A stretch of 24,791 bases of DNA from a virus. Below are positions 11,437-15,151 of this stretch, one piece after another. The position numbers and the translations under genes were made by a program. Where the stretch lies: IMG/VR virus record IMGVR_UViG_3300046680_000014, positions 1 through 24,791 of that record. One strand, 5' to 3'. Every line of letters begins with the position of its first letter. The first letter of the stretch is position 1. Under the pieces are notes generated by a model, which did no database searches, was not told where the DNA came from, and saw only the letters and a program-made list of their open reading frames with translations.

Positions 11437-11465
11437 TTGACAAGAATCCCCATCATTGATATAAT
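11437..11465 (+). promoter_or_regulatory. Perfect-consensus sigma70 promoter on the opposite strand
   Basis: TTGACA (11437-11442) and TATAAT (11460-11465) are separated by exactly 17 bases, with TGA before the -10 giving an extended -10, and GC after it as in this phage's other promoters. All 12 hexamer bases match consensus. It points rightward, against every gene in the window, and would start an RNA near 11472 that crosses the non-coding stretch and runs antisense to the genes at 11595-13116. Confidence 0.75.
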
Positions 11466-13148: not shown

Positions 13149-13177
13149 ATCATAAACAAAAAGCCCAAACGTGTCAA
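13149..13177 (-). promoter_or_regulatory. Strong sigma70 promoter embedded in a terminator
   Basis: On the minus strand a perfect TTGACA (13177-13172), a 17-base spacer and TATGAT (13154-13149). The predicted start is near 13142, 26 bases before the ATG of the 392-residue gene. The spacer is the 3' arm and U tract of the terminator at 13158-13208, so the same bases end one transcript and start the next. Confidence 0.85.
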
Positions 13178-13208
13178 CCCCTTTCGGAGAAAACATGTTT
13201 GGGCTTTT
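13158..13208 (-). terminator. Terminator hairpin, inverted repeat works in both directions
   Basis: The arms AAAAGCCCAAAC and GTTTGGGCTTTT (12 bp, extended by a few pairs past one mismatch) flank a loop of about 18 bases. In leftward RNA the 3' arm runs into UUUUUGUUU. On the plus strand the same repeat ends in TTTTGTGTGG. It ends the unit that starts at 14306 and lies between the coiled-coil gene and the promoter for the 392-residue gene. Confidence 0.85.
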
Positions 13209-13326: not shown

Positions 13327-13758
13327 TTAGTAGTCCAACCGGCTACCTTCTGCCGCTTCGAGGGCTTGCTGTTCGAACTCGTCACGAAGTTGTTCCAGTG
13401 CGCCACTACAGATCATCTTGTCGAGGGTCGCATCGAGACGCATCGGGTCCACACCGCCGAACAGATCGGCTGCACCATCGACGTTCGCGCCGACCGTTGC
13501 CGTGATTTCCAGAATGCTCGGGAGGATGAACTTCAGGAGAGTGTAGCGTTCGGCATCATCGAACAGTGCCGCGCCTTCTTCGGCCAGTGCGTCGTTTTCT
13601 TCTTCGAGGTCTTCAATCGCTTCGAGCATCACGGCGAGGGTCGAATCCAGTTGACGGATCAGGCCGTTGGCAAGATTCAGCCCACTGCGAAGGACTTCGA
13701 TGTCGCTTTCATTTGCGACGTTTGCATCAACTTCTTCGAACGACAGGTATTGCGACAT
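13327..13758 (-). CDS. Acidic coiled-coil protein, unknown function
   Basis: A 143-residue acidic, helical protein. Residues 25-65 have clear heptad character (LNLANGLIRQLDSTLAVMLE, AIEDLEEENDALAEEGAAL) and probably form a coiled coil. A hydrophobic helix (LLKFILPSILEITATVGANV) and a Gly/Asp-rich turn follow, and the tail is acidic and helical. No family is recognised. It is the last gene of the unit that starts with the structured RNA and tRNA-like gene. Its ribosome site is poor (GAGAAACACCTA before the ATG), and two stable hairpins (13790-13821) precede it, so translation may be regulated. The following 118 bases are non-coding up to the terminator. Confidence 0.72.
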   Translation of the reverse strand: MSQYLSFEEVDANVANESDIEVLRSGLNLANGLIRQLDSTLAVMLEAIEDLEEENDALAEEGAALFDDAERYTLLKFILPSILEITATVGANVDGAADLFGGVDPMRLDATLDKMICSGALEQLRDEFEQQALEAAEGSRLDY

Positions 13759-13823: not shown

Positions 13824-14036
13824 TTACAGGAACGACGGGTACGATTGACCCATCTTCCACGCAAACTTGCCCGATTTGTTCGTCGTGCTTTCGATGTTCA
13901 GACCATCGTCACGCAGTTCACAGACACGCGCGGACGGCTTGGTGATGCCGTAAGCCTTGGCTTGCGTCGGCGTCAGGAGACGGCCTTTACGCAGAATGGA
14001 TTCGATCTTCGACTTCTGGGTTGCTTGCTTCTTCAT
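13824..14036 (-). CDS. Small helix-turn-helix protein
   Basis: A 70-residue basic protein. Residues 10-50 match a small HTH pattern (KIESILRKGRLLTPTQAKAYGITKPSARVCELRDDGLNI) common in phages: helix, 'LT..QA...YGI' turn, then a recognition helix 'ARV.ELR..G..I'. It would bind DNA and may regulate transcription or replication. The ATG at 14036 is preceded by AGAGAAAG at suitable distance. It lies immediately downstream of the tRNA-like gene on the transcript from the promoter at 14278-14306, so its mRNA would need cleavage at the tRNA 3' end or would carry the RNA structures as a leader. Confidence 0.82.
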   Translation of the reverse strand: MKKQATQKSKIESILRKGRLLTPTQAKAYGITKPSARVCELRDDGLNIESTTNKSGKFAWKMGQSYPSFL

Positions 14037-14067
14037 GTCTACTTTCTCTACAAGGTTTAGGGATTAT

Positions 14068-14171
14068 GTGAACGGCGGGACTCGAACCCACAATTGTCTC
14101 CGGCTTCATGGACGGGCTTTGACTTCCCGCTATTATCCGCCAGACGCGTCTACCAATTTCGCCACGTTCAC
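14068..14171 (-). tRNA. tRNA-Leu-like gene with abnormal anticodon region
   Basis: A 104-base tRNA-like sequence. The acceptor arms GTGAACG (14171-14165) and CGTTCAC (14074-14068) pair perfectly. The D-arm GCGAAATTGGTAGACGC is nearly identical to that of bacterial tRNA-Leu, and the T-arm GTGGG-TTCGAGT-CCCGC is canonical. CCA is not encoded. The 54 bases between D- and T-arm (about 32 expected for Leu) hold no standard 7-base anticodon loop. TCTGG can pair with CCGGA, but around a 36-base loop. Alternatively GCGGG/CCCGT closes a 9-base loop containing TCAAA, reminiscent of a Leu-CAA anticodon. It may be a degenerate tRNA, an interrupted tRNA or a tRNA-like RNA with another role. Confidence 0.6.
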
Positions 14172-14174
14172 TGC

Positions 14175-14267
14175 GATTCGATGAAGCCAACCGCCTCAAA
14201 TGGCGCTTCATGCGCCGGGACGAGCGGAGTACCGAAGTACTTGAATCCGCGCGGCCTTCATCGAATC
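14175..14267 (-). ncRNA. Structured RNA upstream of the tRNA-like gene
   Basis: The minus strand carries a 12-base perfect inverted repeat, GATTCGATGAAG (14267-14256) with CTTCATCGAATC (14186-14175), which can be extended past a bulge. It encloses two further hairpins: GCGG(ATTCA)AGTAC-TTCG-GTACT-CCGC (14250-14224) and GGCGC-ATGAA-GCGCC (14216-14202). The result is a three-way-junction-like RNA of about 93 bases. The 5' arm begins within a few bases of the predicted transcription start, and the 3' arm ends 3 bases before the tRNA-like gene. No reading frame fits. T4 encodes small stable RNAs of unknown role beside its tRNAs, which is a possible parallel. Confidence 0.65.
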
Positions 14268-14277
14268 AACAAGTGTG

Positions 14278-14306
14278 ATTATACGCTCATTCCCACACTT
14301 GGTCAA
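14278..14306 (-). promoter_or_regulatory. Strong sigma70 promoter for RNA/tRNA-like unit
   Basis: On the minus strand TTGACC (14306-14301), a 17-base spacer and a perfect TATAAT (14283-14278). The predicted start is near 14271, just 4 bases before the structured RNA. It sits 10 bases after the stop of the small membrane-protein gene. Confidence 0.85.
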
Positions 14307-14315
14307 CTACTTTCT

Positions 14316-14501
14316 CTACTTTTCTTCGTCTTCTACTTCTTCATCACCCGCGCGTTGCAGACGCACAACACCGAGTTCTTCAAGCTTTTCCAATACTGCC
14401 GTTGCACCAACGCTTTGACCACGTTTGTAGCAAGCGTAACATGCCGCCAACATGAGTGCAATCTGAATCAGGTCCATCAGCGAAAGAAAGTGATCGTACA
14501 T
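14316..14501 (-). CDS. Small single-span membrane protein
   Basis: A 61-residue protein with one hydrophobic segment (residues 9-24, MDLIQIALMLAACYACYKRG), followed by a Gly/Ala helix (VGATAVLEKLEELGV) and a strongly acidic tail (GDEEVEDEEK). The layout, a short N-terminus outside and a charged C-terminus inside, is common among small T4-type phage membrane proteins. The function is unknown, and a holin would normally be larger or have more spans. The ATG at 14501 has AAGGA 5 bases upstream and lies 25 bases inside the end of the metallopeptidase-like gene, suggesting co-translation. Confidence 0.75.
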   Translation of the reverse strand: MYDHFLSLMDLIQIALMLAACYACYKRGQSVGATAVLEKLEELGVVRLQRAGDEEVEDEEK

Positions 14502-15151
14502 GTGAATCCTTCTTGGTTATCCCGAATCCGGGTGATGTGTTCGTAAACCTTCTTGTAGAGACGATTGCGAATGTCTTTCCAGTCGGTTCCGTGGAAGGCT
14601 TCGACGTACATCGCCCATGCGAGGGATTTCGTGTAGCGACCATTGCGAAGATGGTCCATGTAGTTGCCGGGGAAGAAATGAAATAGTTCGATGGCGATGT
14701 CATGTGCATAGGCGTCGATTTCATCAATCTCTGCCAGATACGCTTGCCTCTCATTCATCGGTTCTCCACCACCAAGCATATAGGCCATGATCGGCGCGCG
14801 GTCATCTCTAAACCGGTACTGGTACTGGTGAATCAGTTCGTGTGAGAGTGATTGAAAGATGGCATAGACCATGTGCCTCACCAGCTTATCCGACAGATAC
14901 AACTTGTCGCTAAACTTCGACACATGGACTTCGATCTTGATCGGAGTGTGATGGTCTTCAGGTTCAAAGACACCACTGATCCCACAATCATCCGTGGCGA
15001 TAGCGTCACCAATCATCACACAGCGCGCTTGAAACGGGCGTATGGCGGTCTGGATCAGCTTACGAAGGTCAGAGTGCAGGATCGTGTCACGACCCCGCAG
15101 AGCGTCATATAACGGTTTCAGTCGCTTGTTGATTTTGCGTGCAAGGTACAT
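14477..15151 (-). CDS. Putative zinc metallopeptidase (HExxH)
   Basis: A 224-residue protein. Residues 104-108 are HELIH in the context SLSHELIHQYQYRFRDDR, the zincin catalytic motif. Downstream, YLAEIDEIDAYAHDIAIEL (about residues 138-156) supplies a candidate third ligand, Glu141 or Glu144. The N-terminal 100 residues include a basic start (ARKINKRLKPLYDALRGRD) and a beta-rich section (IKIEVHVSKF). Similar HExxH proteins occur in T4-like cyanophages and are usually annotated as hypothetical or virion-associated. There is no signal peptide, so the site of action is unclear. Its ribosome-binding site GGGAG lies inside the hairpin at 15155-15180, and a late-type octamer overlaps the hairpin, pointing to late-only translation. 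Confidence 0.82.
   Translation of the reverse strand: MYLARKINKRLKPLYDALRGRDTILHSDLRKLIQTAIRPFQARCVMIGDAIATDDCGISGVFEPEDHHTPIKIEVHVSKFSDKLYLSDKLVRHMVYAIFQSLSHELIHQYQYRFRDDRAPIMAYMLGGGEPMNERQAYLAEIDEIDAYAHDIAIELFHFFPGNYMDHLRNGRYTKSLAWAMYVEAFHGTDWKDIRNRLYKKVYEHITRIRDNQEGFTCTITFFR

Follow-up and report, generated by a model that had tools for sequence, protein, structure and literature searches.

A probable two-RNA cassette around a kept tRNA frame in a T4-like phage

What does a T4-like phage make from a near-consensus promoter that opens onto a structured RNA and a tRNA-like gene? The question arises on the minus strand of IMG/VR virus record IMGVR_UViG_3300046680_000014, a 24.8-kb viral fragment of such a phage (positions 1 to 24,791; this whole stretch is called the window). 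Here, a sigma-70-type promoter is followed by a structured RNA of 93 nucleotides (nt), termed module 1, and then by a tRNA-Leu-like RNA of 105 nt that has no anticodon arm, termed module 2. A cassette architecture of two RNAs is well supported by the anatomy of the locus, compensatory changes in the tRNA frame, the replacement of modules between relatives, the occurrence of comparable frames in many phages and a parallel in T4.

Anatomy of the two modules

The promoter (TTGACC-17-TATAAT; 14278–14306, minus strand) agreed with the consensus at 11 of 12 positions and was the top minus-strand match in the window; the one further 11/12 match fell inside a terminator-like hairpin. From a predicted start near 14270, transcription would run directly into the 12-base-pair (bp) stem that closes module 1 (14175–14267, minus strand). 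The stem is perfect, with 14267–14256 paired with 14186–14175, and a perfect 12-bp inverted repeat with such spacing is rare by chance (26 of 30 shuffled windows were without any). It encloses a UUCG hairpin (14241–14228) and a GGCGC/GCGCC hairpin (14216–14202), with 3 bases between the end of the stem and the tRNA-like gene. Module 1 folds with a minimum free energy of -45.1 kcal/mol, which corresponds to z = -3.9 when compared with dinucleotide shuffles. Promoter, stem, both hairpins and gap were all present as the initial annotation had described them, and the fold supports its view of a structured non-coding RNA with a strong promoter of its own. It had also stated that no reading frame fits, and no conserved frame was found in the RNA region; a mechanical open reading frame of 74 amino acids (14211–13987) overlaps the region but runs across both RNA genes and enters the next protein gene out of frame.

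Module 2 (14067–14171, minus strand) scored 41.6 bits against the tRNA model RF00005 (cut-off 29); ARAGORN, applied to the window, called no tRNA at 14171–14067. On the minus strand, its acceptor stem is a 7-bp helix formed by GTGAACG (14165–14171) and CGTTCAC, the latter being followed by A73 (14067–14074) with no encoded CCA. A Leu-type D arm, GCGAAATTGGTAGACGC, occupies 14146–14162 and the T arm, GTGGG-TTCGAGT-CCCGC, 14075–14091. Between these, in the position of the anticodon arm, lies a variable domain of 54 nt (14092–14145) with a UCUGGC/GCCGGA closing helix and an inner hairpin. Thus, of the parts required of a decoding tRNA, module 2 had the 7-bp acceptor, D arm and T arm, and an anticodon arm (5-bp stem, 7-nt loop and U33) was not found in it; module 2 cannot decode. 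The inserted domain also contains a tandem stop-like word, UAAUAG, at 14135–14130.

Frame and modules in syntenic relatives

The window was compared with three IMG/VR phages of ~168 kb (L002, L003 and L004), these three being mutually close; they share its gene neighbourhood, with 79–81% protein identity in a gene of 224 amino acids. The promoter, with its 17-base spacer, was kept in all four phages. A tRNA-like gene stood at the same place in each, measuring 105 nt in the window and 113, 140 and 130 nt in the relatives (including N73). Acceptor, D and T stems together make 15 pairs, and all 60 cells across the four phages were standard pairs, and six of the 15 had changed on both sides; the resulting covariation score was reached by none of 500 shuffles, and slides also came nowhere near it. 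Identity of the frame between phages was 71–88%. The domain between D and T arms was 54–89 nt long and differed from phage to phage, alignment being at the level of shuffles in five of the six pairwise comparisons.

Module 1 was likewise replaced. Its site in the relatives holds a different RNA of 62–71 nt, consisting of a GUUGAU..RUCAAC hairpin and an H-type pseudoknot, three pairs of which had changed on both sides among L002–L004. This RNA could not be aligned with the 93-nt RNA of the window, and a search of the three relatives' genomes gave no convincing match to module 1, neither position nor sequence being kept. There was no match to 13900–14600 among 50,697 phage records (T4 included), no other occurrence of the stem pattern in a pattern scan of the IMG/VR viral collection, and no Rfam 15 family on 14175–14267. 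Judged by these comparisons, the 93-nt RNA is one interchangeable module without a homologue. The initial annotation had treated it as the main feature; that emphasis has to shift to the promoter and the tRNA frame, which are the conserved parts. The locus behaves as a series of exchangeable RNA modules around these two elements. An inverted repeat around the promoter, CAAGTGTG..CACACTTG, was considered as an operator and set aside, since it is absent from the relatives.

The comparison bears on two other accounts of the locus. One is that a promoter-like site and a hairpin happen to lie beside a stray tRNA-like sequence, without function, as the lack of a homologue for the 93-nt RNA might suggest; however, the retention of promoter and frame in four phages with compensatory changes already disfavours chance, the fold of module 1 (z = -3.9) also speaks against it, and this account is very improbable indeed. 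The other concerns the gene that follows, which encodes a winged helix-turn-helix (HTH) protein of 70 amino acids (PF14090; 13824–14036, minus strand). Its start codon is separated from the tRNA-like gene by 30 bases that contain no terminator, the order is the same in the relatives, and the gene is probably part of the same transcript as module 2. On this account the RNAs would regulate the HTH operon in cis, as its leader or an attenuator, with the tRNA-like fold as processing site or sensor. This leader role was among those offered by the initial annotation, and is possible but unsupported: neither the upstream RNA nor the spacer is kept (an extra stem-loop occurs in L003 and L004 only), while it is the tRNA frame that is conserved. 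We regard regulation of this kind as unlikely.

Two further features were noted in the relatives. The stem-loop of L003 and L004, situated between tRNA-like gene and HTH gene and missing from L002 and the window, is ~55 nt long (CGGGTAG..CTACCCG) and contains two inner hairpins. In relative G002, the tRNA cluster in C1 includes a second elongated tRNA, which is Ser-like and 122 nt long (L011:2391–2512).

Swapped-arm frames in other genomes and the T4 pair

Viral contigs were scanned for a Leu-type D arm followed 51–111 bases later by a T arm, and matches were kept where the acceptor had at least 6 of 7 pairs, the T stem at least 4 of 5 and no ordinary tRNA lay within. At least 87 Leu-type frames passed from at least 122 pairings, when by our own arithmetic about two were expected through chance pairing. 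As acceptor pairing was itself a filter, it cannot count in favour of the stem in this set, for which the unfiltered test is the covariation among the four phages. The following values refer to the matches listed. One of the 87 frames was overlapped by an ordinary tRNA called by ARAGORN, which also made one spurious call of a transfer-messenger RNA (tmRNA). A handful of the 87, for example L091 and L124, had a CUGUUUA loop, that is, a normal anticodon arm with a long variable arm; these were left out of a set of 76 non-redundant inserts, which includes the window and two of its relatives. Of 47 distinct acceptors, 36 had A at position 73, which was unselected; a leucine-type frame would predict this. 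Words resembling tandem stop codons (UAAUAG, UAGUAG) occurred within the first 25 nt of 16 of the 76 inserts (6.6 in shuffles); a tag-like reading of them was dropped because they showed no preference of frame. A search of the inserts for short shared words revealed no common motif.

Similar scans of the viral contigs returned 15 Ser-type frames from 22 matches, several of them near-identical, and 22 class-I-type frames from 125 matches. In a few of the latter, the anticodon loop seems to hold a genuine insertion, which makes the overall set mixed. L315 (His-like) and L360 (Phe-like) appear to carry a short insertion within the anticodon loop, below the size of a group I intron. In seven others (L312, L318, L342, L351, L355, L363 and L371), the insert has a variable hairpin and then ACAGCAA or ACUGCAA, and in several of these a GUU, GAA or GAU anticodon loop is retained 3' of that motif.

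These frames are where the view that module 2 is an intron-containing or decaying tRNA, its insert being either a small intron removed by splicing or the mark of a dying pseudogene, can be weighed. The insert does occupy the usual site of tRNA introns, and L315 and L360, read by eye, have insertion-like anticodon loops with flanking stems kept. Against this, inspection of the window and its relatives showed that the flanks of the insert form no anticodon loop. Among the 76 inserts listed, an anticodon-like hairpin (5 bp, 7 nt, U33, R37) was found in 5, compared with 4.0 in shuffles, and position 33 was T in only 19. Group I introns are much longer than inserts of these sizes, and decay is hard to reconcile with the compensatory changes in the acceptor, D and T stems. 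Such an origin is, in our judgement, improbable.

Many matches to the Leu pattern in bacterial genomes proved to be ordinary tRNA-Leu genes arranged in tandem and were discarded. In cyanobacterial genomes, tRNA-like frames were observed in L180 and L212 and, in tandem, at L272:2458–2860, L288:6428–6800 and L251:5310–5678; these have differing acceptors and share one conserved insert of ~50 nt (TCCTTRTTCA..CTTGCCTGCAAAGGCCGA..GAATNGAGGGTTATCG) that replaces the anticodon arm and matched no Rfam family.

A close parallel in arrangement is found in T4. Its rnaC and rnaD are late-made RNAs whose function is listed as unknown (PMC9697503; PMC3014915), and a change in rnaD arose in a lab-evolved T4-like phage during host adaptation (PMC12685909). 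The initial annotation had likened the locus to two small stable RNAs of T4, and the likeness holds: rnaD and rnaC (also species 2 and species 1, or bands D and C) are adjacent small RNAs, the first structured and the second tRNA-like, in the order rnaD (119 nt), a 6-nt gap and rnaC (139 nt), compared with 93 nt, 3 nt and 105 nt in the window. Like module 2, rnaC joins a tRNA-like acceptor and T arm to a long middle that is not an anticodon arm. It ends in CCGGG-UUCGAAU-CCCGG-CGUUUCG-U, and across six T4-like phages the T stem covaries, being CCGGG/CCCGG, CCUGG/CCAGG or CUUGG/CCAAG. The acceptor covaries as well; it has two U-U mismatches in T4 and most members, whereas in Yersinia phage fHe-Yen9-01 all 7 bp are formed; in Salmonella phage Melville, both ends of rnaC are kept and the middle is different. 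Both RNAs are conserved in hundreds of phages. The resemblance concerns architecture only, for no sequence similarity between rnaC and module 2 emerged when 13900–14600 was searched against phage records including T4. The T4 pair also differs in setting, being placed in a tRNA cluster after tRNA-Arg, while that of the window stands alone near a gp41-like helicase gene with its own promoter.

Other known RNAs share parts of this plan. The T4-like Klebsiella phages Marfa and Potts1 have an elongated tRNA (in Potts1, annotated as tRNA-Ser and 131 nt long) with a Leu-type D arm, T arm, acceptor and long non-anticodon middle, although it lies within a tRNA cluster and has a different insert. The bacterial Y RNA YrlA (RF02553) contains a tRNA-shaped module without an anticodon arm, which ends at a Ro-binding stem, unlike module 2, which ends at its acceptor; a Y RNA was rejected, given no RF02553 match in the window and no Ro/TROVE gene in the window or relatives. 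In tmRNA, too, acceptor and T arm are linked by a long insert, with pseudoknots in some members. It was rejected because the window gave neither a model match nor an ARAGORN call. The frame is also Leu- rather than Ala-type; weak tmRNA matches in L002 and L004 covered the T arm only. Theta ribozymes of gut phages are small structured RNAs joined to phage tRNAs and postulated to trim the 3' trailer (PMC10879173), whereas the structured RNA of the window is on the 5' side of its tRNA-like gene; HDV-like Rfam families had no match in the window, the theta model itself not having been run.

Proposed function and genome setting

On balance, we think it probable that the locus is a two-RNA cassette. 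In it, the tRNA frame would ensure the processing and stability of RNA domains that evolve fast, and these domains would most likely serve as decoys for host factors or inhibit them. Transcription, processing, stability and binding are here deduced from sequence. The single host-type promoter would yield a transcript with module 1, module 2 and then the HTH gene. The initial annotation had suggested processing by host RNase P, and the position of module 1 immediately before the tRNA-like gene agrees with this: RNase P could cut the 5' end of that gene, and a single cut at 14171 would define where module 1 stops and module 2 starts. The host would add the missing CCA, and the frame would then supply module 2 with a mature end, CCA and resistance to nucleases. 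Module 2 would be a natural tRNA scaffold resembling the artificial ones, in which a passenger RNA occupies the anticodon position; these differ in being man-made, with no use beyond stability and expression. The task of module 1 and the inserted domain would most likely be to bind and occupy some host factor that changes fast, for example a nuclease of a defence system, a toxin that depends on RNA or a different protein that binds RNA. That modules have been swapped between close relatives with frame and promoter kept suggests that the modules are the working parts, and the speed at which both have been replaced suggests a partner that changes. Phage tRNAs act against host defence systems, in supply and decoy roles (PMC11555353; PMC13096335), which makes defence nucleases and RNA-regulated toxins the plainest candidates.

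Leucyl- and seryl-tRNA synthetases do not read the anticodon, so the host might also charge module 2 with leucine. This allows a narrower explanation, in which the frame is a charged mimic acting through leucyl-tRNA synthetase, EF-Tu or another user of aminoacyl-tRNA, and the insert merely blocks decoding. A Leu-type D arm with A73, and the presence of Leu and Ser frames among those found, agree with it. Charging is not required by the variability of the inserts or by T4 rnaC, with its U73 and non-Leu D arm, and 22 candidate frames of comparable form are of class-I type; we consider such mimicry quite improbable.

Several observations weigh against the scaffold as proposed. Folding of the inserted domain (14091–14145) exceeded that of shuffles by a modest margin only (z = -1.7), as did folding of the inserts among the matches listed (mean z = -0.89), so part of their variability could reflect relaxed constraint. 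The longest antisense match to mRNAs of the window was 12 nt, within the range of shuffles, and no target for the inserted RNAs was found, complementarity to the window being at chance level; the function therefore stays a proposal. The binding role is a guess from variability, T4 rnaC, having neither the Leu D arm nor A73, is like module 2 in architecture rather than sequence, and the window phage is known here as contig sequence alone.

A broader generalisation is more tentative: phages and some bacterial genomes may widely use tRNA frames as natural, non-decoding scaffolds, with fast-evolving modules directed at host factors taking the place of the anticodon arm, the species 1 RNA of T4, unexplained for some fifty years, being among them. 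If rnaC and the RNA of the window are indeed scaffolds with exchangeable domains, the function of the T4 stable RNAs becomes a testable question. The reading might also give phage tRNA genes a role that involves no decoding, next to those of supply and decoy in defence; it might account for many of the odd or undetermined tRNA calls made in phage genomes, and might provide a simple means of listing such RNAs.

The window otherwise encodes a gp43-type polymerase, a DnaB-like helicase, a primase, an RNA ligase of T4 Rnl1 type and a class I ribonucleotide reductase. A frame of 61 amino acids ends upstream of the promoter. After the HTH gene, the next gene of the presumed operon encodes a protein of 143 amino acids whose family was not recognised (13327–13758, minus strand). 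On the plus strand, opposite to the adjacent genes, there is a perfect consensus promoter (TTGACA-17-TATAAT, 11437–11465); the 128 bases after it folded no better than shuffles. The operon likely ends at a perfect 12-bp inverted repeat, AAAAGCCCAAAC..GTTTGGGCTTTT, which is terminator-like and followed by a T run (13158–13208, minus strand). The loop of this hairpin contains a -35-like TTGACA and then TATGAT, and it is possible that terminator and promoter overlap here.
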